Both the position numbers and the translations under genes were made by a program. This document shows, one piece after another, positions 7,082 through 26,032 of a stretch of 64,000 nt of DNA. The notes beneath the pieces were generated by a model that did no database searches, was not told the DNA's origin, and worked only from the letters and a program-made list of their open reading frames with translations. The first letter of the stretch is position 1. Every line of letters begins with the position of its first letter. The stretch is from Hydrogenophaga sp. (lineage in GTDB: Bacteria; Pseudomonadota; Gammaproteobacteria; Burkholderiales; Burkholderiaceae_C): contig NZ_JAUSCF010000017.1 in NCBI RefSeq assembly GCF_030651625.1, positions 124,001-188,000 on the forward strand. The letters are read 5' to 3'.

Positions 7082-7609
7082 ATGGACAAAAGCGCGGTCT
7101 TCTTGAAGACGGACAACGGGCGGGAGGCCCTGACGAGCCGTCCGCCAGGTCTCACGCCCCGTTTGCGTTCGCTGCTGATCATGACCGACGGCAAGCGGAC
7201 GGTGGCCGAACTTGACAAGATGCTGGGAGCCGAAGGCGCCGCCGGGCCCCTGCTGGAGCAACTGGTTGCACAGGGGTGGCTGCATGGGCAGGGAGCCCCC
7301 GGGGCTGGTGCGGCATCCGCGCCAACGGGTGCGGACACTGCCTTGGCTCCTGCAGCGGTGGGCACTTTGCCGCCCGTGGTCGAAGAGACCTGGCCGTTCC
7401 TCGACGCTCGCCGGCGCGTGGTGCGTTTCATCAACGACCAATTGGGCCCCATGGGTGAGACCCTGGCCATACGTGTGGAGTCATGCAAAAGCGCCTCGGA
7501 GCTGCAGTTGGCATTGCCGCGCATCCGCGATGGCCTGCGCAATTTCAAGAACTCGGCCACGGTGCAGCAATTCGATCAGGAGATCGCAGTCCACTTGCCG
7601 ACTGCTTGA
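7082..7609 (+). CDS. hypothetical protein with winged-helix-like N-terminus
   Basis: I do not recognise a named family. The 175-residue protein has an N-terminal segment (about residues 20-68, with the pattern DGKRTVAELDKMLG...LLEQLVAQGWL) that looks like a winged-helix domain. An Ala/Pro-rich linker follows, then a helical C-terminal domain of about 75 residues. No signal peptide or membrane segment is visible. The ATG at 7082 follows an AAAGGAAG ribosome site. It stands alone between paaK and a putative outer-membrane protein gene. Confidence 0.6.
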   Translation: MDKSAVFLKTDNGREALTSRPPGLTPRLRSLLIMTDGKRTVAELDKMLGAEGAAGPLLEQLVAQGWLHGQGAPGAGAASAPTGADTALAPAAVGTLPPVVEETWPFLDARRRVVRFINDQLGPMGETLAIRVESCKSASELQLALPRIRDGLRNFKNSATVQQFDQEIAVHLPTA

Positions 7610-7751
7610 GAGGCCTGCAGAACAGGTGGTTCCAGACCGGCGCAACGGACGCCGACACGCCTGTGGCCTCAAGTTCATGGCCCTTGCCGACCTGTTGGGC
7701 CCGCTACCTTCCTAGAATGTGGTGTTCATTCATTTCAGGAAGGACTCTCCC

Positions 7752-8294
7752 ATGAACAAGCTTCGCCATCTCGCACTTGCCACCGGCCTCGCAGGCATGA
7801 TCGCGGCACCCGCCGCGCAGGCGCAATCTGTCTACGGCGAACTGGGCTACACGGCATTGACTGCAAGCCTGTCGGTGCCGGTGCTGGGCGTGTCGGTCAA
7901 GTCGGAGCCTGCCATGGCCCGTGCCATGATCGGCATTTCACCCTTTGCAGGACTGGGTGTGGAGGGAATGATCGGTACCGGTGTCCGCGACGACCGCTTG
8001 CGCGGCAACGTGGCGATGAACTCCCGGGTCAAGGTGGACGAATTCCTGGGGGTCTATCTCGCGTCGCGCCTGAACCTGGGGCCGGTGGAGCTGTTTGGTC
8101 GGGCCGGTGTCGCTGAAACCCGGGTGCGTTTCGAAGGGCTGGGCACTGGCAGTGACACTGGCTTTTCTTACGGGGCTGGACTGCGCCTGCTGCCCACCGA
8201 CAGCCTCACCCTCAGCCTCGATTACATGAGCTACCTCGACAAGAGCGGCTTGAAGATCGATGGCTACACGCTCAGTCTGGGCCTGAAGTTCTGA
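7752..8294 (+). CDS. outer membrane beta-barrel protein
   Basis: The 180-residue product starts with a clear signal peptide ending in APAAQAQS. It continues as alternating amphipathic strands (YGELGYTAL, LSLDYMSYL, GYTLSLGLKF) and ends with the terminal Phe recognised by the BAM complex. This is the layout of small OmpA/OmpW/Opa-like eight-stranded barrels. The ligand or role is unknown. A GGAAGGA ribosome site precedes the ATG. Confidence 0.72.
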   Translation: MNKLRHLALATGLAGMIAAPAAQAQSVYGELGYTALTASLSVPVLGVSVKSEPAMARAMIGISPFAGLGVEGMIGTGVRDDRLRGNVAMNSRVKVDEFLGVYLASRLNLGPVELFGRAGVAETRVRFEGLGTGSDTGFSYGAGLRLLPTDSLTLSLDYMSYLDKSGLKIDGYTLSLGLKF

Positions 8295-8377
8295 GGCTCG
8301 ACGGGCTGTTCAAGAGCCTTTCCGGAGCGGAATGTCTCAGTCCAGAAACACCTTCGGGCCAGCTTTGCCAGACGAAT

Positions 8378-13734: not shown

Positions 13735-14736
13735 CTACACGATGGCGCAGGCGGTGGTGGACACTGTCCACCGCCCCAGGGGTTGGTTCAGATCAGCGCC
13801 CCGACGCAATGCCGTCATTTCCGCCACGATGCTCATGGCGATCTCGGGGGGTGTGAGCGCGCCGAGGTTCAGGCCCACCGGCCCGCGCAACCGGTCGGCT
13901 TCATCGGCCGACACATCAAACATCTGCAGGCGTTCGCGACGCCTGGCGTTGTTGTGCACAGAGCCCAGCGCACCAACGTAGAACGCCGGTGTTCGCAGTG
14001 CCTCCATGAGCGCAAGATCGTCGAGTTTGGGGTCGTGTGTGACGGCGACCACCGCACTGTTGTGGTCCAGGTTCATGGCCAGCACAAGATCATCGGGCAT
14101 GGTGGTGGACAGGGTGACGCCCGGCATGGCATCCCACCCTTCGTGGTACTCGCTGCGGGGTTCGCATACCGTCACCTGGTAGTCGAGCATCACAGCCATC
14201 GACGCCAGGTAGCGCGACAACTGACCGCCGCCAATCACCAACAGGCGAAGACGGGGGCCGTGCACGGTGGTCAGCGTGGCACCGTCAAATGTCACCCGGT
14301 CCCCTTCATGAGCAGGTCCGTGACGCACCAGGCCGGTAGCGAGGTCCAGGCGTCTCTGCACCCGCCGGTGGGTCTCGATGTCTGCCAGCAGTTCGCGCAA
14401 GCGCGATTGCGTTGACAGCGGCTCCAGCACGATCTGCACCGTGCCGCCGCAGGGCAGTCCGAAGCGCCGCACCTCCTCTGCGGTCTGGCCATAGATGGTC
14501 ACTTCGGGCAGACGCAGCGCGAGTCCCCCGCTGGCCACGCGTGCGATGAGATCGTCTTCTATGCAGCCGCCTGACACCGAGCCCGCCACCTGGCCGTCGT
14601 CGCGGATGACCATGAGCGAACCGGGTGGGCGCGGCGCCGAGCCCCAGGTGCGCACCACGGTGCCGAGCACGACGCGATGGCCTTTGCCCAACCAGTCAAG
14701 TGCGGTGCGGATGACGTCGATGTCGATACTGTTCAT
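13735..14736 (-). CDS. XdhC/CoxI family molybdenum cofactor maturation protein
   Basis: The 333-residue protein has an N-terminal XdhC_CoxI domain (VRTWGSAPRPPGSLMVI, GSVSGGCIEDDL) and a C-terminal XdhC Rossmann domain (LLVIGGGQLSRYLASMA, FYVGALGS). XdhC proteins bind and sulfurate molybdenum cofactor before insertion into hydroxylases. As the last gene of the cox operon it should serve CO dehydrogenase and can be compared with CoxI. Its ATG overlaps the stop codon of the membrane-protein gene (ATGA). A second, shorter homologue is encoded upstream in the same operon. Confidence 0.88.
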   Translation of the reverse strand: MNSIDIDVIRTALDWLGKGHRVVLGTVVRTWGSAPRPPGSLMVIRDDGQVAGSVSGGCIEDDLIARVASGGLALRLPEVTIYGQTAEEVRRFGLPCGGTVQIVLEPLSTQSRLRELLADIETHRRVQRRLDLATGLVRHGPAHEGDRVTFDGATLTTVHGPRLRLLVIGGGQLSRYLASMAVMLDYQVTVCEPRSEYHEGWDAMPGVTLSTTMPDDLVLAMNLDHNSAVVAVTHDPKLDDLALMEALRTPAFYVGALGSVHNNARRRERLQMFDVSADEADRLRGPVGLNLGALTPPEIAMSIVAEMTALRRGADLNQPLGRWTVSTTACAIV

Positions 14737-15887
14737 ATGGCGTTTCTCCATGAAGACGTTGCCTGTGGCGCAGACCGCAGACCCATTTGCCGGACCCGGT
14801 ACGCAAGCGCGATCAGCGCAAGCGCACCCAGCAAACCATAAGCCCATGCCAGTGCCTGAGGCCCCAGGGTGATGCTTGCCTGGCCGACGGCGATCAACAA
14901 CACAGGGCCACCCATAGATAGTGAATGGCGGACGAGTCCGTTCGCCGCCCCGGCTGGTGAGGGGTGACGGGCGACTTGAATCGCCCAGGCCAATGCGATC
15001 CCTGTCATGCCGACCAGCCCTTGCACTGGCTTGTTGCTGGTCTGCATGAGTACCGCAGCCAGAACAAGCAACACCAAAACCAGCGAATTCAGGGAAGGTG
15101 CGGACGTGCGCCAACGACTCAGGGCTGGCTGCACCATAGCGGGCACCAACGCCATCGTCATCAGGTGCAGGCCCACCACGGTGGGCTGCGACCATCCCTG
15201 AGCCGTGCACCAGATCGAGCCCAACCAGAGCGAACCCATCATCAAGCCCATGGCCATGGCGGGCAGCGCGTTGCCCACTGACATGGACAGGGACGAAACA
15301 GGCGTGTGACCAAGCGTGAAGTGTGACCGGGCAGGGCGAGCAATGGCACCGAGCAGAACGAGACCCATGAGCAGTCCTGCGACACGCCATTCACGTGACA
15401 GCCACCCAACGGGCGCGGCCAGCGTTGGCCAGACCAGCGCCGCTGCCACGATCGCCGGGCCAACGTGCCAGACGCTTGATGCATGGGACACTGGACCGAT
15501 CCTGCGGCCCGCCTCCAGCGCACCTGACCAGACCGCCCATGTCATGGCCAATGTCAGCAGCAGCGTGTGTGCGTATTGGCCGGCCGCACCGAGTTCGATG
15601 ACAAGCGCGCCTGCGGTTGTGGTTCCGCCCATCAAGGCGATGGCACGACCAGACAGCATGGCGCCCCACCGCGATCCGATGATCAGCAACCGGACCGCCC
15701 ACCAGAGGGCCACCGCGAGCAAACCGCCGGCCATGGGCCAGCCCAGCCGCTGCCCCTGCTCGCCCAGCCACACCCACCCCATGAACAACACTGTCCACAT
15801 TGCCAGCGACTGGGTCAGTGAGCCGGCCATCGACCTGTTCAATGGCAATCCGCTCTGCAGTTGATGCAGTTCCTCAGGCATGGGCAT
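14733..15887 (-). CDS. multi-pass membrane protein of unknown function in cox operon
   Basis: The 384-residue product has about ten to twelve hydrophobic segments spread over its length and no signal peptide. I cannot name the family with confidence. Segments such as RSHFTLGHT and GLHLMTMALVPAMVQ faintly recall NnrS-type haem-copper membrane proteins, but the canonical NnrS start is missing. The gene overlaps the upstream oxygenase gene by 14 bp and the downstream xdhC by 4 bp, so it is translationally coupled inside the cox operon. A CoxK/CoxB-like role, membrane attachment of CO dehydrogenase, or metal supply are guesses. The start is 15887 or 15881. Confidence 0.6.
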   Translation of the reverse strand: MPMPEELHQLQSGLPLNRSMAGSLTQSLAMWTVLFMGWVWLGEQGQRLGWPMAGGLLAVALWWAVRLLIIGSRWGAMLSGRAIALMGGTTTAGALVIELGAAGQYAHTLLLTLAMTWAVWSGALEAGRRIGPVSHASSVWHVGPAIVAAALVWPTLAAPVGWLSREWRVAGLLMGLVLLGAIARPARSHFTLGHTPVSSLSMSVGNALPAMAMGLMMGSLWLGSIWCTAQGWSQPTVVGLHLMTMALVPAMVQPALSRWRTSAPSLNSLVLVLLVLAAVLMQTSNKPVQGLVGMTGIALAWAIQVARHPSPAGAANGLVRHSLSMGGPVLLIAVGQASITLGPQALAWAYGLLGALALIALAYRVRQMGLRSAPQATSSWRNAI

Positions 15888-16569
15888 ACCCGTGCAGTTG
15901 GTCGCTGCCGCTGCCTGCATGTACGCTGGCGTTGAACGACACGATGATGCGGTCGGCTTCGCCTGCGTACGGAAGGGCCTGGTGAGGCAGCCATGAGGGA
16001 AAAACCACCAGTTGCCCGGGCCGCGGTGCGATGTCGAAATGCGCAGACTGCAGATAGGCATTGCCGAAGTCCATGTGGGCACCACCGAGGTGGTTGAAGT
16101 GGGGACCATAGAAGCGCGTGACACCGTTGTGTGCACCCAGTGCCGGGTGGCGTGAGCGAGCATGCTCTTCGTCCACATCGACGCAATACACGCCCGACCA
16201 CGAACAATTGCCGTGTGTGTGCACGTCGTGGTGGCTACCCTGGTTGCTCATCTGGAACCACACGCCGCGCAGAGCGATCTGGAGCGCTGGCGTGGCTTCG
16301 GGCCAGGCACCCTGGTTGGCCAGTACCACGGTCTGGCGCAGGCTGTCCACAATGAACCTCACCAGTCCGTCCCACTCGGGCAGACGGATGCGCTGAAGCA
16401 GGTCGTCACGGCTGGCGTAGAAGGCCGCGTCGGGTGCGGCGTTCGGGTCGGTCGCGCGCAGCGAGCGCAAGACCCTGGCCAGCAAGCCATTGACCGAGTC
16501 GGCCTGCGCGTAGCGGTGCAAGCCCAATGGGGTGAACCACAGCGGAACCAGGGGCGATGGCGTGAGCAT
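15874..16569 (-). CDS. putative 2OG-Fe(II) oxygenase (TIGR02466-like)
   Basis: The 231-residue protein resembles the TIGR02466 group. It has an HDVHTHGNCSWSGVYCVD segment at residues 114-131 with candidate iron ligands H117 and H119. The strand GQLVVFPSWLPHQALPY holds a distal His (H196), and RIIVSFN carries the Arg (R207) expected to hold 2-oxoglutarate. Enzymes of this fold hydroxylate proteins or small molecules; the substrate here is unknown. It lies inside the cox operon, 22 bp after the mocA-like gene, and overlaps the membrane-protein gene, so a link to CO dehydrogenase function is likely but undefined. Confidence 0.75.
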   Translation of the reverse strand: MLTPSPLVPLWFTPLGLHRYAQADSVNGLLARVLRSLRATDPNAAPDAAFYASRDDLLQRIRLPEWDGLVRFIVDSLRQTVVLANQGAWPEATPALQIALRGVWFQMSNQGSHHDVHTHGNCSWSGVYCVDVDEEHARSRHPALGAHNGVTRFYGPHFNHLGGAHMDFGNAYLQSAHFDIAPRPGQLVVFPSWLPHQALPYAGEADRIIVSFNASVHAGSGSDQLHGYAHA

Positions 16570-16591: not shown

Positions 16592-17272
16592 TCATCCCAT
16601 GACGGCCAGGTCGTCGGGCCAGCGCAGCCGGTGCCCGGTGCGTGCAGCCAGCGCTTCGATGTCGTCCTGCGTGTCCACGTCGGTGCGGTAGCGCTGGTTG
16701 CTGGTTAGCCAACGAAGCACCTGCTCCGGGTGCGCCGCCTGCCATTGGCGGCAACCGGCGTTCGCATCTCCCGACAGGATCTGGTCGCGTACCTCGGCGC
16801 TGAACAGCACCGGGTTGCCGGGCAGACCATCCACCTCGGGTTGCACCACCTGTGCCATGGAAGGGCGCTTCTTGTAGGCCCCGATCAGGTCGTTGATGTC
16901 CTGCGAATTGATGAGTGGCTGATCGGCGAGGGCCACGAGCACGCAGTCCAGCTTCGGCGAAAGCGCCTGAAGGCCAATGTGCAGAGAGGTGTTCTGGCCG
17001 GCATTCGGGTCGGGGTTGTGGACGACCGTCACGGGAAACGATTCGATGACCGGCGCGATGCGTTGGGCATGGTGGCCCAGCACCACCACCAGTTCGTCCA
17101 CGCCGGCACCTGAGAGGGCGATGAGCTGGCGCCGGATCAGGGGAATGCCGCCCAGTTCCAGCAGGCTCTTTGGTCGGTGGCCCATGCGAGAGCCAGCACC
17201 CGCAGCGAGCAGCACCGCACCCACCGCCAAGCGACTGTACAGGCCGCCGCCACCTTTGAGGATGCAACCCAT
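16592..17272 (-). CDS. mocA: molybdenum cofactor cytidylyltransferase-like NTP transferase
   Basis: The 226-residue protein has the MobA/MocA nucleotide-binding loop (LLAAGAGSRMG, residues 21-31, then RPKSLLELGG) and the metal-binding ALADQPLI segment. MocA attaches CMP to molybdopterin, giving the cytosine dinucleotide form used by CO dehydrogenase and xanthine dehydrogenase relatives. Placement directly after coxF fits supply of that cofactor. The start at 17272 lies 5 bp after the coxF stop. The N-terminal glycines (ILKGGGGLYS) are unusual, and a later start is possible. Confidence 0.85.
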   Translation of the reverse strand: MGCILKGGGGLYSRLAVGAVLLAAGAGSRMGHRPKSLLELGGIPLIRRQLIALSGAGVDELVVVLGHHAQRIAPVIESFPVTVVHNPDPNAGQNTSLHIGLQALSPKLDCVLVALADQPLINSQDINDLIGAYKKRPSMAQVVQPEVDGLPGNPVLFSAEVRDQILSGDANAGCRQWQAAHPEQVLRWLTSNQRYRTDVDTQDDIEALAARTGHRLRWPDDLAVMG

Positions 17273-17277
17273 GTTGT

Positions 17278-18228
17278 TCAGCCGCCGCAGCAGGATGGGG
17301 TGGTTTTCGCCGACACCTCGGGTATCGGCGCTACGGGAACCTGTGGCGCAGGCGCCTCCTGATCGACCGTAGCAAGGTCCGCTTTTGCTGCAGCGCCACC
17401 ACAGCACGACTTGCTGGAGGTGGATGTCGTTGCTTCGGACCGTGTGCGGCGCTCGGCCACCACCGCCATCAGGATCGAGAGCGCAATCTCTTCCGCCGTT
17501 TGGGCACCTACAGGCACGCCGGCAGGTGCCACGATGGCATCCACCTGGGCACGATCTTCCCCGGCTGAGATCAGGCTTTGCCGGATCACGCCGGCCTTGC
17601 GCGCGCTGGCCACGAACCAGAGCTTTCGTGGTCGCAGCGCCAGTGCCGTCTTCAGTCCTTGAAGATCGCGGCGGCCTTGCGTCGCCACAATGGCCAGCCC
17701 CTCCGGCCGCACCAGCTCGCGCACCTGTTCCACGTTGTCGCTGGGCATCACAGTTCTGGCTTCCGGAAAATCCTGGGCACAAGCGCCTTCGGCAATCACC
17801 GTGACGCTGAAATCCAGACGCGGCGCCAGCATGGCCAGGGCACGCGCCACCGGGGAGTCGCCCAGCACCGTCAATTGCGCTGCGGGCAGCACGGGATCCA
17901 CGAACATTTCAAGCGTGCCGCCCGAGTGGCAGGCCATGCCAAATTCCAGCACATCGCCCAGGGTTCGTTCGGCCGTTTCGTCGGTCGGGGCAATGCGGAT
18001 GTGGCGTGCCTGGCCGTCGGCCAGGGCGGCGCGCACCGTCTTGATCACGGCGGGTTGCGCACAGCCGCCGCCAATCCAGCCATGGATAGCACCCTCTGCG
18101 GTGACGAGGGCCTTGTCACCCACCTTGGCCGATGCGGGCGGTTGCACGCGCAGCACCGTCACCAGCGCGAAGGCCTGTTGCTGTGCGTGGAGCCTTTGGA
18201 CGGCGTTGATCCATTCGTTCTGGCTCAT
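17278..18228 (-). CDS. coxF: XdhC family protein CoxF
   Basis: The 316-residue protein has the XdhC_CoxI domain (IHGWIGGGCAQPAVI) and a C-terminal XdhC Rossmann domain (LTVLGDSPVARALAML). It lies directly after coxE, the position of coxF in known cox clusters. CoxF is thought to act with CoxD and CoxE in post-translational assembly of the copper-sulfur-molybdenum centre. The C-terminal tail holds two CCGG motifs, one near residue 278 and one at the extreme end, separated by an Ala/Pro-rich linker; they look like metal-binding sites. Confidence 0.87.
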   Translation of the reverse strand: MSQNEWINAVQRLHAQQQAFALVTVLRVQPPASAKVGDKALVTAEGAIHGWIGGGCAQPAVIKTVRAALADGQARHIRIAPTDETAERTLGDVLEFGMACHSGGTLEMFVDPVLPAAQLTVLGDSPVARALAMLAPRLDFSVTVIAEGACAQDFPEARTVMPSDNVEQVRELVRPEGLAIVATQGRRDLQGLKTALALRPRKLWFVASARKAGVIRQSLISAGEDRAQVDAIVAPAGVPVGAQTAEEIALSILMAVVAERRTRSEATTSTSSKSCCGGAAAKADLATVDQEAPAPQVPVAPIPEVSAKTTPSCCGG

Positions 18229-18254: not shown

Positions 18255-19442
18255 TCAGTGCAGTTGCTTTCGGGCCGCGACCAGGTCGCCCAGGCTGGCC
18301 ATAGGAACGAAATGCTCGATGCTGGCCCGGGATGCCCGCAAGGCCGCTGCGGCTGGAACCGTGCGAGTGGGGTGAAACCAGGTGACGTGCGCACCACGGG
18401 ATCGCAGCGCCAGCAACGCACCGGGAAGCGCTTCGGGTGGATCGGTGTCGAACCCGTCGGAAAAGACCCAGACTCTGGAGCCCCGTCTGATCTGCCCCCG
18501 GGCGTGCAAGCGCGCAAAGTCGTTGAGGCAGGCCGCAATCCGCGTGCCGGCGCCGAATCCTGCCGTCACGACGTTCACCTTCTCCTGAACGGCGGCCGAA
18601 TCGCGCTGCATCAGTGGCGTGACGTCGGCCAGGCGCGTGTGGAACACGAACACCCGGGCCTGCGCAGCCACTGCAAACGCCCGCGCGATGCGCAGGAAGA
18701 GCGGGGCATGTGATTCCATCGAGCGGCTCACGTCGATGAGCAGAAACAGGCGAGGGGGTTCCATGCGCTGCACCATCCAGGCCGGCTGCAGCGGTTCACC
18801 ACCCCAGGCCACACTGCGCCGCAGTGTCTGACGCAGGTCGAGCCTGTGTCCAGGGCGGGCCGCGTGCCAGCGCCGCGTGGATCGAGGACGCAATTGCGCC
18901 GTGATTTGTCGCGCCAGTTGCAGCAGTGTGCCCAGTTCCTGCGGTAGCCACATCTGTCCGTTGCGCTGATGCAGGGGCTCGGCTCGGCTCGCTCCGCCCA
19001 TGGCTTTTGGATTGCCCGGTTCGTTGTTGTGCTCGTCGCTGGCACCCGGGGCATGGGCAGCGGATGACGACGCTGATGGCTTCGGTGGACTGGCAGATGC
19101 CGGTTCCATGCGCTGGTGAAGGTCTTGCACGACCTGACGCAGGTCCCGGGAAGGCCGGACCTGGCCACTCACCCGGACATCGCCCTTGATTCGCTGCGGG
19201 TACCAGTAGCGATCAAACAGGTCGGGCCACTGGCGCCAGTCGCGCGCGCAGTGGCAGGCAATGGCGCGCCATGCCGCACGAAGCGGCACACTACGAAAGG
19301 CTCCCAGCGCCAGGCTGGCCTGCAGCATGGCCTGTTGTTCGGTCACCCCCACCTTCAGTCCATGGTCCCGCAGCATGGCCGCGAACCCGGCCACGCTCTG
19401 GCTGGGCGCCACAGCGGCATGCCGGTCAGACCGGGCGCTCAC
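18255..19442 (-). CDS. coxE: VWA domain protein CoxE
   Basis: This 395-residue protein of the CoxE-like VWA family has a metal-ion-dependent adhesion site DVSRS starting at D237 within LLIDVSRSMESHAP. CoxE pairs with the MoxR-type ATPase CoxD, as MoxR/VWA pairs generally do. In aerobic CO oxidisers the pair is needed to introduce sulfur and copper into the molybdenum site of CoxL. A low-complexity Ser/Pro/Ala region lies around residues 110-150. It starts 22 bp after the coxD stop. Confidence 0.9.
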   Translation of the reverse strand: MSARSDRHAAVAPSQSVAGFAAMLRDHGLKVGVTEQQAMLQASLALGAFRSVPLRAAWRAIACHCARDWRQWPDLFDRYWYPQRIKGDVRVSGQVRPSRDLRQVVQDLHQRMEPASASPPKPSASSSAAHAPGASDEHNNEPGNPKAMGGASRAEPLHQRNGQMWLPQELGTLLQLARQITAQLRPRSTRRWHAARPGHRLDLRQTLRRSVAWGGEPLQPAWMVQRMEPPRLFLLIDVSRSMESHAPLFLRIARAFAVAAQARVFVFHTRLADVTPLMQRDSAAVQEKVNVVTAGFGAGTRIAACLNDFARLHARGQIRRGSRVWVFSDGFDTDPPEALPGALLALRSRGAHVTWFHPTRTVPAAAALRASRASIEHFVPMASLGDLVAARKQLH

Positions 19443-19464: not shown

Positions 19465-20451
19465 TCATGGCGCTGCCACCACCGCGGCGGTCTTTTCGGC
19501 CACGCCCACGGTTCGACGGCCTTCCACCAACTGCAAAGCCCGCTCGGCAGACACCAGAAAGCGGTCTTCGCGTGTTTTCAGCAGGCAGCCAAGCGTGGTG
19601 AGCAGCACCGTCATGTCTTCGGGCAGTGTGTGCTGTTGCAACTGGTGCAGGGCGCGAACCCAGTCCAGAGTTTCTGCGATGCCCGGTGTCTTGGCCAGAT
19701 CCTCATTGCGCAAACGTTGCACGAACTGCACGCAGTCTTCGACCAGATGGGCATCAGCCTCAGGCACTGCGGATTTCACGATGGCCACTTCGCGCGCCAG
19801 TGTGGGGTAGTCAAGGTAGTGATAGAGGCAGCGGCGGCGCAGTGCATCAGACAATTCGCGCGTGCCGTTGCTGGTGAGAACAACCTGGGGAATGTGCTGT
19901 GCACGCAGTGTGCCGAGTTCCGGGACGGTGATCTGGTAGTCGGCCAGCACCTCCAGCAGGAAGGCTTCGAAGGCTTCGTCGGCGCGGTCTATTTCGTCGA
20001 TCAGCAGCACACTGGGCCCAGACAGACTGATGGCCTTGAGCAATGGCCGCTCCAGCAGGAACTCGCGCGAAAAAATGTCCGAGGACTGCACCTGTTCGCT
20101 GCGGCCCTCGTGCAGGCGAATCGCCATCAACTGGCGCCCGTAGTTCCATTCGTAGGCCGCCTGAGACAAGTCCAGGCCTTCAAAGCACTGCAGCCGAACC
20201 AGCTCGGCACCTTGCGATAGCGCAAGCGCCGTGGCCAGGCCGGTCTTGCCGACGCCCGCATCGCCTTCAATCAGCAAGGGCCGCTGCAGCCGACCCGCCA
20301 GCCACGCCGTGGTGGCCAGATCGGTATCGGCCAGGTAGCCCACGCGCTGCAGTTGCTCACGCAGCGCACGTTCGTCGTGAGGGGGCGCTGGCAGTGTGGT
20401 GGTCACGGTGTGTGTTTCGCTCAGGAACGTTTGCCGAAAAGACCCAGCCAC
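19465..20451 (-). CDS. coxD: MoxR-type AAA+ ATPase CoxD
   Basis: The 328-residue ATPase has Walker A EGDAGVGKT (residues 62-70), Walker B VLLIDEIDRA around residue 150, and the sensor segment VVLTSNGTRELSDALRRR. CoxD is a chaperone-like AAA+ protein that helps build the [CuSMoO2] centre of CO dehydrogenase together with CoxE. The 20451 start overlaps the coxG stop by 31 bp. A GTG at 20406, 14 bp after that stop, would give a 313-residue protein; neither has a strong ribosome site. Confidence 0.9.
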   Translation of the reverse strand: MAGSFRQTFLSETHTVTTTLPAPPHDERALREQLQRVGYLADTDLATTAWLAGRLQRPLLIEGDAGVGKTGLATALALSQGAELVRLQCFEGLDLSQAAYEWNYGRQLMAIRLHEGRSEQVQSSDIFSREFLLERPLLKAISLSGPSVLLIDEIDRADEAFEAFLLEVLADYQITVPELGTLRAQHIPQVVLTSNGTRELSDALRRRCLYHYLDYPTLAREVAIVKSAVPEADAHLVEDCVQFVQRLRNEDLAKTPGIAETLDWVRALHQLQQHTLPEDMTVLLTTLGCLLKTREDRFLVSAERALQLVEGRRTVGVAEKTAAVVAAP

Positions 20452-21056
20452 CAGTTCTTGATCAAAGCCCAGGCAATGGCCAGGCCGTTGATCTCGCTGG
20501 CCACCTTGGGTGCGGCGGCGGATGCTGTCGTCGGTGAAGCAGAGGCCGACGACTCGACGGCGCTTTGAATGGTGCCCGCCGGGGCGGCGGCTGCGGGCAA
20601 TGCCAGGGCGGCCTGGCGGAAGTTCTCCACGAACTGCAGCAGGATCATGTCGGACACCTGCACCATCATGCGACCGCCAAACTGGGCGAACTTGCCGTTG
20701 ACGATGACCGACGCGTCGCCGTGCAGCACACTGTGTTCCGGGTTGGCAGGGTCGACTTCGATCACCGCCGTGAGGTCCATCGAGGCTGACGAGCCGCCCT
20801 TGTCCGCGCCTTTGCCGCGCAGCACCATTTTCTGTGCGGCGGTGTCTTGTTCAAGCACGTCCACGATCCCGCCGAACTGGGCCACCGCCGGTCCGACTTT
20901 CACTTTCACGCCACCTTTGTAAGAGGTGTCAGACAACTGTTCGGTGAGTTCGGCGCCTGGCATGCAGCCCGCCACGGCCTTGAGATCGCTGAGGATGACC
21001 CAGGCCCTGGCCGGGTCCACGTCCAGCGGGTAGCGTTTGTCGAGTTTGACTTCCAT
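20421..21056 (-). CDS. coxG: SRPBCC family protein CoxG
   Basis: The 211-residue CoxG protein starts with an SRPBCC (START-like) domain of about 150 residues (VKLDKRYPLDVDPARAW...CMPGAELTE). An Ala/Ser-rich linker follows, then a hydrophobic tail near residues 190-205 (AIAWALIKNWWLGLF) that can insert in the membrane. CoxG is reported to help anchor CO dehydrogenase to the inner membrane, probably near quinone. It follows coxL here, whereas in Oligotropha coxG comes after coxDEF. Confidence 0.87.
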   Translation of the reverse strand: MEVKLDKRYPLDVDPARAWVILSDLKAVAGCMPGAELTEQLSDTSYKGGVKVKVGPAVAQFGGIVDVLEQDTAAQKMVLRGKGADKGGSSASMDLTAVIEVDPANPEHSVLHGDASVIVNGKFAQFGGRMMVQVSDMILLQFVENFRQAALALPAAAAPAGTIQSAVESSASASPTTASAAAPKVASEINGLAIAWALIKNWWLGLFGKRS

Positions 21057-21212: not shown

Positions 21213-23624
<2,412 letters not shown>

Positions 23625-23639: not shown

Positions 23640-24125
23640 TCAGGCTGTGGCGGGTTCTTGCAGTTTGCGGGCGGCGTACTGCACCGCCTTGACGATGTTC
23701 TGGTATCCGGTACAGCGGCACAGGTTGCCCGCCATGCCCGCCCGGATTTCGGCTTCGCTGGGATTGGGGTTCTCCTGAAGAAAGCGCTGCGCGCGCATCA
23801 GCATGCCGGGCGTGCAGAAGCCGCACTGAAGGCCGTGCTCTTTGTAGAAACCTTCCTGCACTGCGTGCAGCACGCCCTTGCTGGCGAGGCCTTCAACGGT
23901 GTTCACTTCGGAGCCGTCGCACTGCACCGCGAGGTGGGTGCACGACTTGACCGACTGCCCGTCCACGTCGACGGTGCAGGCACCACAGTGGCTGGTCTCA
24001 CAGCCGATGTGGGCACCTGTCAGGTTGAGATCCTCGCGCAGGAAGTGGATGAGCAAGGTGCGTGGTTCCACCGCCTTTTCTTCCTGGCGGCCATTGACGG
24101 TGACGGTGATGAGTTTTTTTGCCAT
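23640..24125 (-). CDS. coxS: CO dehydrogenase small iron-sulfur subunit CoxS
   Basis: The 161-residue protein has two [2Fe-2S] sites. The N-terminal plant-ferredoxin-type site uses C42, C47, C50 and C62 ([10 protein letters not shown]...SC). The C-terminal helical site uses C101, C104, C136 and C138 (CGFC...CRC). It relays electrons from the CoxL molybdenum centre to FAD in CoxM. All eight cysteines are present. It starts 17 bp downstream of the coxM stop. Confidence 0.96.
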
Positions 24126-24142: not shown

Positions 24143-25006
24143 TCAGGAACAACGGCCCCAGGCCTTGGTCAGTGCGCGCTTGACCATCTGCCCAGTCATG
24201 GCGGTCTTGTATTCGATATCGCCGCGAAGGTCTTCTGCCGGATCGCAGATGGCGATGGCCGCATCGGCAGCCGACTGCAGCGTAGCCACATTCAGTGGCT
24301 GGCCCAGCAGCGCGGCCTCGGCGGCTTCGGCGCGCAGCGCGGTGGGTGCCACATTGGTCAGCGCAATGCGCACGTGACTCACCGTGTCGCCGCTCTTGCG
24401 AATCACAACGGCACAACCGGCAGTGGCCCAGTCGCCTGTTTTCCGTTTGAGCTTTTCGTACGCCCAGCCAGTCCCTTGGGCGAAGGCCGGCACACGGATT
24501 TCGCACATGACCTCGTTTTCCTCCAGCAGGGTCATGTACGTGCCCAGGAAGAACCCGTCGGCCGCGACGGTGCGCCGCCCGTTCGGTCCTTCAAGCACAA
24601 AAGAGGCGTCCAGCGCGATGGACAGCGCCGGATGGTCGTTGCCCGGGTCGCCATGTGCAATGTCGCCACCGATGGTGCCCCGGTTGCGCACCTGCGGGTC
24701 GGCAATCAGTTGCGCGGCTTCACACAGCAGTGGTACCCGGGCCTGAAGAATCGGCGAGCTGATCAGCTCGTTTTCCACCGTCATGGCACCGATCACCACC
24801 GTGCTGCCTTCTTCGCGAATGCCCCGCAGCTCGGGTATCCGGTTGATGTCGATCAGGTGCGCCGGTTCGGCAAAACGCAGCTTCATCATCGGCAGCAGGC
24901 TGTGGCCGCCGGCCAGCAGCTTGGCCTCCGACCCCCACTGCCCCAACAGGGCTACGGCTTCCCCGACGGAGCGGGGCGCGTGGTACTCGAAACGCGGTGG
25001 AATCAT
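24143..25006 (-). CDS. coxM: CO dehydrogenase medium FAD-binding subunit CoxM
   Basis: The 287-residue flavoprotein has the two FAD-pyrophosphate motifs of the family, AGGHS (around residue 32) and TIGGD (around residue 113). It accepts electrons from CoxS and delivers them to the quinone pool. It is the first structural gene of the operon. An ACAGGAGAC ribosome site precedes the ATG. The upstream region carries the candidate RcoM-binding repeats. Confidence 0.95.
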
Positions 25007-25058: not shown

Positions 25059-25160
25059 AGTGTAGGAGCCAGGTGATTCCGACACGAATGCCGGGGATTG
25101 ATCCGGCAGGCGCATCAAATGCCAGGTTTTTTGCACGAACTGCGCGTTCAGGCGCATGAA
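25059..25160 (-). promoter_or_regulatory. cox promoter region with direct TTnnnG repeats (candidate RcoM sites)
   Basis: On the minus strand TTCATG, TTCGTG and TTGATG begin at 25160, 25139 and 25118, exactly 21 bp apart. A fourth copy, TTCGTG, begins at 25088. LytTR-type regulators bind direct repeats about two helical turns apart, and TT-N3-G is, from memory, the element described for RcoM. A weak -10 (TACACT, 25059-25064) lies 18 bp from the fourth copy, which would overlap the -35. The repeats are seen directly; promoter function is inferred. Confidence 0.55.
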
Positions 25161-25279
25161 CTGCTCAGATCAAGCGCTGATGAAAATGCAATCCGGGAAT
25201 GTCCCAGTGCGATCCCACGCGTTTTTTTCACGCGCCGTCAAAGGCCGCGGCAACTGTGCAGGAGGCCGAAGTCCCGGCT

Positions 25280-26032
25280 TCAATGCCGCGCCATGAGACC
25301 CAGGGCCTCGCGCAGTCGGGCCACTTCCCCGCGCGCCACCGGGATCGGTTCTCTGTGTTTTCCTTGTAGGAGCACATGTGTCTTGCTGCCCGCGCGCCCC
25401 AACTCTGCCACCGCGTGCAGGTTCACGATGAAACAGCGGTGCACCCGCATAAATTGGGCCGGGTCGAGCCGCGACGCCAGGTCGCCAATGCTGAGGTTGC
25501 AGAAATGAAAGCCGTCCCGTGTGAGCACCCGGGTGTAATGGGCCTGGGACTCCAGGCAAAGCACGTCCTGCGTATCGACAAAGGCCACCTTGTGGTTGGC
25601 CACCATGGGAATGCGGTTCAGCCGCACGTTGGCTGCCGGTGGGTCTGCCAGCGAGGGTTCCTGGCTGACCACCTGGGTCACGTCGTAGAACACCAGCACA
25701 AACCCGGTGGTGGCGCCGTCCTGATCACCGAGTCGGGACACCTTGATCAGCAGCACCTGCTCGGGGATGTTGATGATCATGGTCATGGGGACCGCATTGG
25801 CCACCGGACAGCTCGAAGCCTGGTCCAGCAGGAAATTGACCTTGGGTTTGGATCGATCCGGGTGGAACGAAGACACCAGCTTGTCAAACGGCTGCTTTTC
25901 GCCCACTGGCAACACCCTGCGAGCGAAGTCGTTCATGGCGAGCACGGTGCGCTCGGCATTCAGGTGGATCACACCCACCTCGAATTTTTCGAACAGGTAC
26001 AGGGGCGAGTTGGTCGCAGCCTGGGCATCCAT
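25280..26032 (-). CDS. rcoM: RcoM-like CO-sensing transcriptional regulator (PAS-LytTR)
   Basis: The 250-residue single-component regulator has an N-terminal PAS domain (about residues 8-125) and a C-terminal LytTR DNA-binding domain (about residues 150-245, with RVHRCFIVNLHAV). The PAS domain aligns with Burkholderia xenovorans RcoM-2. The haem ligands His74, Cys94 and Met104 of that protein correspond to H57 (FHPDRSK), C75 (SCPVANA) and M85 (TMIINIP) here. CO replaces the Met ligand and activates DNA binding. The gene lies upstream of coxM on the same strand with a 270-bp promoter gap. The start at 26032 drops a long spurious upstream extension. Confidence 0.9.
   Translation of the reverse strand: MDAQAATNSPLYLFEKFEVGVIHLNAERTVLAMNDFARRVLPVGEKQPFDKLVSSFHPDRSKPKVNFLLDQASSCPVANAVPMTMIINIPEQVLLIKVSRLGDQDGATTGFVLVFYDVTQVVSQEPSLADPPAANVRLNRIPMVANHKVAFVDTQDVLCLESQAHYTRVLTRDGFHFCNLSIGDLASRLDPAQFMRVHRCFIVNLHAVAELGRAGSKTHVLLQGKHREPIPVARGEVARLREALGLMARH

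Follow-up and report, generated by a model that had tools for sequence, protein, structure and literature searches.

Analysis of the window, the whole stretch of 64,000 nucleotides examined here, showed an open reading frame of 250 amino acids plus a stop codon on the minus strand of 25280-26032, and no open frame on the plus strand of the same interval. The gene, rcoM, is followed on one strand by coxM, coxS, coxL, coxG, coxD, coxE, coxF and a mocA-like gene (Table 1). Pfam analysis of the rcoM product identified a PAS domain (PAS_10, 23.5 bits against a cut-off of 22.1) and a LytTR domain (E 2.9e-18). The first-pass annotation had described a PAS-LytTR protein at this position, leaving its strand unstated, and both domains were recovered. 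Both Pfam and the model folds are consistent with the single-component arrangement of RcoM, with an N-terminal PAS and a C-terminal LytTR domain. Among Pfam matches up to an E value of 1, there was no MHYT domain, the membrane sensor of the CoxC type, and no CRP/FNR fold with a helix-turn-helix, as in CooA; LytTR was present instead.

Table 1. Genes and predicted features at the rcoM-cox locus, in their order on the minus strand.
Feature	Coordinates	Strand	Remarks
rcoM, 250 aa; PAS (residues 13-119) and LytTR (residues 148-244)	25280..26032	minus	ORF, Pfam
Terminator-like hairpin between rcoM and operator	25193..25207	minus	weak
Operator repeat 1, TTCATGCG	25153..25160	minus	
Operator repeat 2, TTCGTGCA	25132..25139	minus	21 bp after repeat 1
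Operator repeat 3, TTGATGCG	25111..25118	minus	21 bp after repeat 2; weaker in most relatives
Possible -35 hexamer, TTCGTG	25083..25088	minus	18 bp before -10; weak
Possible -10 hexamer, TACACT	25059..25064	minus	75 bp after start of repeat 2
coxM, FAD subunit of CO dehydrogenase	24143..25006	minus	
coxS, 2Fe-2S subunit	23640..24125	minus	
coxL, form I Mo-Cu CO dehydrogenase large subunit	21213..23624	minus	AYRCSFR; TIGR02416 above cut-off
coxG	20421..21056	minus	PF06240 COXG
coxD, AAA ATPase	19465..20451	minus	
coxE, VWA protein	18255..19442	minus	PF05762 VWA_CoxE
coxF, XdhC/CoxI family	17278..18228	minus	
mocA-like molybdenum cofactor cytidylyltransferase	16592..17272	minus	TIGR03310, below cut-off

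An AlphaFold2 model of the rcoM protein, built from 28 relatives, had a mean pLDDT of 76.8. The LytTR part was the better modelled; confidence in the PAS part was modest, with means of 55-85 over 10-residue blocks. The model matched LytTR domains (3d6w, AgrA) and PAS domains in the PDB, including the haem PAS domains of FixL, Aer2 and SrrB. These structural matches are to generic folds and are no demonstration of haem binding. A PDB sequence search (E up to 1) returned one LytTR domain and zero RcoM entries. Judged by its sequence features, the gene very probably encodes RcoM, a haem CO sensor of a known type.

As is typical of RcoM genes, rcoM is linked to genes of CO metabolism. The encoded CoxL contains AYRCSFR, matching the AYxCSFR motif that we take to be the mark of form I CoxL, and its TIGR02416 score of 1552 bits exceeds the cut-off of 991. 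It had been proposed that rcoM lies directly upstream of coxM on the same strand and that CoxL is of form I, and both proposals were confirmed. In 77 of 80 related loci, coxM is found 3' of rcoM on the same strand, at a distance of about 200 to 1000 bp. At L047 and L052, the contig stops within 350 bp of rcoM and coxM is not visible, and L066 carries rcoM without an adjoining coxM. The further family loci showed the same arrangement in 26 of 28 cases; at L176 and L181, the contig stops within 400 bp of rcoM. The AYRCSFR motif could be read at 64 of these 80 loci; at the other 16, CoxL either gave no match or matched only partially and without the motif. The combination of rcoM, coxMSL, coxGDEF and mocA is described in PMC11771112 for Cupriavidus ulmosensis CV2 and Paraburkholderia terrae COX, and the gene set as such is already published there.

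Two neighbourhoods were noted separately. The rcoM gene of L066 (7001-7735), from a Thiomonas MAG, lies about 6 kb from a partial coxL match, which is on the opposite strand, and the RcoM-cox unit may have been rearranged there. In the window, the minus strand beyond mocA carries a 2OG-Fe(II) oxygenase (15874-16569), an overlapping open frame with no Pfam match (14733-16178) and a second protein of the XdhC/CoxI family (13735-14670). These three genes may be members of the cox operon.

Of 60 genomes searched in the genus, 11 carried rcoM. Form I coxL scored above the cut-off in 10 of the 11 rcoM-positive genomes versus none of the 15 rcoM-negative genomes tested (Fisher p 2e-6, relatedness ignored), the 15 having been chosen from the 49 rcoM-negative genomes among those at least 98% complete. 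In all 10 genomes with both genes, coxL lies on the rcoM contig and within 5 kb. The exception, G1774, is 79% complete and in about 470 contigs. CoxL relatives below the cut-off were present in 11 of the 15 rcoM-negative genomes, and the link is therefore to form I. This patchy occurrence of rcoM together with form I coxL suggests gain or loss as a block, and offers the strongest argument for a self-contained unit behaving in this way.

Predicted haem-ligand residues and their spacing

The RcoM-type protein of P. aromaticivorans plasmid pBN2 (L083), whose gene adjoins coxMSL, was used as a stand-in for B. xenovorans RcoM-2. It is 34% identical to the window protein (84 of 246 aligned residues). 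Its H75, C95 and M105 align with H57, C75 and M85, the predicted haem ligands of the window protein (H57 and M85 in the ferrous state, C75 in the ferric state). For B. xenovorans RcoM-2, the positions His74 and Cys94 are those given in the first-pass annotation. Met104 is named in a title cited by PMC9670170. The earlier assignment of H57, C75 and M85 to the RcoM ligand columns was thus borne out with L083 as the reference. The His, Met and Cys residues are in place in the PAS domain, and their ligation of haem is predicted.

The three residues were identical in all 82 aligned proteins of a first set, comprising 80 genome-contig loci, L083 and the window protein; this set was seeded partly by a search pattern holding M85, so the figure is insufficient alone. 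For a second sample, a PAS profile served as the query against 398 genomes of the phylum, 300 of the order, 369 of the class and 399 of the family. Among its 43 rows with an E value below 1e-10, which probably share species with the first set and are not independent of it, His was found in 41, Cys in 37 and Met in 42. L188, one of these rows, proved to be a PAS histidine kinase rather than an RcoM; without it, the counts were 41, 37 and 42 of 42. Ten duplicate loci, matches with an E value above 1e-10, and L171 were left out of the 43 rows. L171 was dropped for poor local alignment, and H, C and M are visible in its sequence.

This conservation bears on the idea that the PAS domain of the window lineage does not bind haem and that the gene is a drifting remnant. 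Such loss has a parallel in L182, a relative on a long branch in which H and C are gone. The window protein is among the 82 of 82 that keep all three residues, its reading frame is intact, and the gene order and the operator described below are kept, all of which make decay extremely improbable here.

The distances from H to C and from H to M are 20 and 30 residues in L083 and 18 and 28 in the window protein, with C to M at 10 in both, and the alignment places the length difference between H and C. The L083 spacing equals that stated for RcoM-2 in the first-pass annotation, whose observation that both distances are two residues shorter here holds against L083. Its explanation, a single two-residue deletion, is unproven. 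C to M is 10 residues in 82 of 82 proteins of the first set and H to C is 18 in 77 of 82. On the Paraburkholderia side of the tree, H-C spacing is 18 or 17 in L187 and L189, 20 in L083 and L190, the only two proteins with this value, and 21 in L191. Because a spacing of 18 is the commonest and is present on both sides of the cox-linked branch, a deletion in the window lineage is not established; an insertion in the Paraburkholderia branch may be at least as likely.

Predicted operator, promoter and mode of action

The gap between rcoM and coxM contains the arrangement TTCATGCG-N13-TTCGTGCA-N13-TTGATGCG. The reported RcoM1 site consists of three TTCNNGCA direct repeats separated by 12-13 bp (PMC11347149); repeats 1 and 3 of the window differ from TTCNNGCA by one and two letters, respectively. 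The window arrangement is a predicted site of this type, three direct repeats at the promoter of CO-metabolism genes. The operator was absent from the first-pass annotation and was located in the present analysis.

A strict triple TTNNNGCN was found in 11 of 79 gaps against 0.005 expected from dinucleotide shuffles. Allowing at most one mismatch per repeat, TTCGTGC pairs 21 bp apart numbered 63 in 78 gaps (0.1 expected), and pairs 20 bp apart numbered 11 (0.0 expected). When up to 2 mismatches in the 14 positions were allowed, 74 of 78 gaps contained a pair, a count made without a shuffled control; under stricter chaining, neither triple nor pair was found in 7 of 78. At the place of the third repeat, 21 bp further on, 3.1 of 7 positions matched versus about 0.9 to 2.2 at neighbouring offsets. 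In most relatives, two of the repeats are strong and the third is weak. Three equal repeats were rejected as a general rule in the clade, the strict triple being present in only 11 of 79 gaps.

In the genome of origin, the two-repeat pattern had 11 matches versus 2 for a reversed control pattern. Ten of the 11 were checked; the third repeat was present only at the coxM site, with no other triple among those checked elsewhere in the genome. No TTNNNGC site was found in the 100 bp upstream of rcoM, and therefore no autoregulation is claimed.

A consensus scan detected no sigma70 promoter. A hexamer of the form TA(C/G)ACT or AATACT was found exactly 75 bp from repeat 2 in 30 of 74 gaps and only 3 times at all other offsets from 30 to 99; the motif was defined after seeing the data, the loci are related, and the motif in that form is absent from 44 of the 74 gaps. 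The fixed distance of this -10-like hexamer suggests a fit with activation. In the window, the starts of the three repeats lie 96, 75 and 54 bp upstream of it, and the array of repeats ends 22 bp before the possible -35. If the hexamer is a -10, the repeats therefore lie upstream of the -35, in an activator position. Terminator-like hairpins were also observed on both strands between rcoM and the operator, at 25193-25223 (2 found versus 0.5 expected). If these are true terminators, rcoM and coxM would be separate transcripts.

The same geometry was weighed against repression. CoxC of Afipia carboxidovorans is also a LytTR protein, and it binds three TTNNNGCN repeats and represses (PMC11347149), so that the rcoM product might by analogy be a cox repressor relieved by CO. 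The repeats of CoxC are reported to overlap the -35, whereas those in the window end before it, and the rcoM protein is without an MHYT domain. A repressor is accordingly considered very unlikely.

The explanation that we hold to be highly likely is that RcoM is a one-component haem CO sensor activating coxMSLGDEF-mocA. The PAS domain would hold the haem, which in the ferrous state would be ligated by H57 and M85 and in the ferric state by C75 in place of M85. CO would displace M85 and the dimer would change shape. The LytTR domains of the dimer would then bind the three direct repeats at 25160-25111, and this binding would recruit RNA polymerase to a promoter just downstream. This would switch on coxMSLGDEF-mocA, and the CO-oxidising enzyme would be made while CO persists. 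What the sequence itself shows is the protein architecture, the ligand columns, the operator and the gene order, together with the joint occurrence of rcoM and form I coxL. The binding of haem and CO, the ligand switch, the dimer and activation are presumed by analogy with Paraburkholderia xenovorans RcoM. In that protein (also named from B. xenovorans), the reported ligands of ferrous haem are His and Met, the latter of which is displaced by CO (PMC9670170), and the dimer binds repeats and activates cox (PMC9670170, PMC11160397). The notion of a self-contained CO-sensing and CO-oxidising unit, advanced by the first-pass annotation, is supported at the sequence level by domain order, ligand columns, operator, form I linkage and genus co-occurrence.

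Relatives with and without the cysteine

The Cys is missing from six relatives that have PAS and LytTR domains (L183, L184, L185, L186, L220 and L221). His is kept in all six and Met in five, L221 being without it. CowN is encoded near L183 (8504-8776), L186 (8900-9157), L220 (7229-7516) and L221 (140-430). A CooS Prismane/CO-dehydrogenase is encoded near L184 (8945-11080) and L185 (5305-7494), with a 4Fe-4S protein in both loci. No cox genes were found near these six His-bearing, Cys-less RcoMs in the sample. The Cys-bearing RcoMs adjoin cox, except L066 and, at contig edges, L047, L052, L176 and L181.

A quick tree was calculated from 39 chosen proteins, of which 33 were labelled as cox; 31 of these show a coxM neighbour, and L066 and L181 do not. 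The cox-linked and the other RcoMs fell on two sides of one branch with a support of 93, in a tree with long branches to L182, L183, L186 and L221, and in which L183 and L186 meet. Together with other cox-linked proteins, 28 in all, the window protein forms a clade (SH-aLRT 100); the Paraburkholderia-type branch of five is separate from this clade and is its sister in the tree. Given the two sides of one branch, the presence of Cys appears to have changed about once, apart from L182. The relation of Cys to target in these sequences is a contrast between two branches, amounting to about one event, and not a repeated pattern.

Searches for further Cys-less members returned only the one already known in each of the family of G001 (1 genome) and the order of G092 (78 genomes), and two more of RcoM size in the class of G163. 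In plasmid searches with two Cys-less queries, one Paraburkholderia record and two Caballeronia records were the only ones to match over 80% of the query. A literature search on the Cys-versus-target pattern found nothing, the primary RcoM papers, which may describe it, lying outside that search.

The contrast could tentatively be read as an adaptation to oxygen, an idea that we regard as possible and yet somewhat doubtful. Cys would mark the cox-linked, aerobic branch and would hold the oxidised haem in a protected, inactive state for re-arming, rather than serve CO sensing itself; the RcoMs of oxygen-sensitive systems (CowN for nitrogenase, the CooS Ni-CODH) keep His, and mostly Met, without Cys. 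Against this idea, L182, which is without H and C, sits at cox. The pattern also opens the role of Cys as a ferric ligand to experimental test.

L182 (G1037, 7531-8319) was also observed in its own right. It is RcoM-like, has lost H and C, and lies directly upstream of a coxM that is 85% identical to the window coxM over 123 readable residues. Some otherwise invariant LytTR residues are changed, as assessed by eye, and the gap retains an operator-like pair 21 bp apart. It is possibly a haem-less regulator on a very long branch. L182 keeps coxM and the operator pair without H and C, and the ligands therefore seem not to be indispensable in every lineage.

The Cys also enters a different account of the window protein, in which a haem protein with these ligands is mainly a switch of redox or haem state through Cys/Met exchange, and carbon and energy state largely sets cox expression, with CO as one input. 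C75 is conserved in the cox-linked relatives. Constitutive CO dehydrogenase expression is described for the related species Hydrogenophaga pseudoflava, and organic carbon is reported to repress CO dehydrogenase in two rcoM strains (PMC11771112). However, RcoM genes adjoin three CO-related targets (cox, Ni-CODH and CowN), whose common factor is CO and not redox state, and in the profile-sampled relatives, His and Met are kept more firmly than Cys. A mainly redox-driven switch is thus considered improbable, and activation by a CO-sensing RcoM is preferred. For the rcoM-bearing strains, the same source states that CO uptake seemed to need added CO in C. ulmosensis CV2 and took place in Pb. terrae COX irrespective of CO addition (PMC11771112). 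The reports on Pb. terrae COX and on H. pseudoflava, whether or not the latter bears this rcoM, indicate that CO induction may not be general.

Relation to known systems

The conserved RcoM-cox unit, found mostly in Burkholderiales where the organism is named, offers a predicted operator and promoter geometry that is ready for reporter tests. RcoM domains are reported to bind CO very tightly, hence the interest in them as CO scavengers (PMC11160397), and a second, diverged clade could therefore be a source of natural variants.

The closest described systems are RcoM-1 and RcoM-2 of Paraburkholderia (Burkholderia) xenovorans, which share the PAS and LytTR domains, the H/C/M columns, a form I cox neighbour and three direct TTCNNGCA-type repeats with the 12-13 bp separation given in PMC11347149. 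The Paraburkholderia type, represented by L083, differs in its 34% identity, its position on a sister branch and its H-C loop, which is two residues longer than that of the window protein. In L083, rcoM is on the opposite strand to coxM with an ompW-type gene between them, whereas in the window, rcoM adjoins coxM on one strand. The clusters of C. ulmosensis CV2 and Pb. terrae COX have the same gene content, compared by description only (PMC11771112).

CoxC of Afipia carboxidovorans resembles the window protein as a CO-responsive LytTR protein with triple direct repeats at a cox promoter, but is described as a membrane MHYT sensor with copper, and as a repressor whose operator lies over the -35 (PMC11347149). 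The RcoM of Rubrivivax gelatinosus CBS belongs to the same family, with a printed identity of 32-35% to the B. xenovorans RcoMs; it is linked to anaerobic coo genes and Ni-CODH, and not to cox (PMC4257681). The RcoM-cox arrangement of the window is of a known family and system type; its RcoM falls in a sister clade, and its predicted operator is located here.
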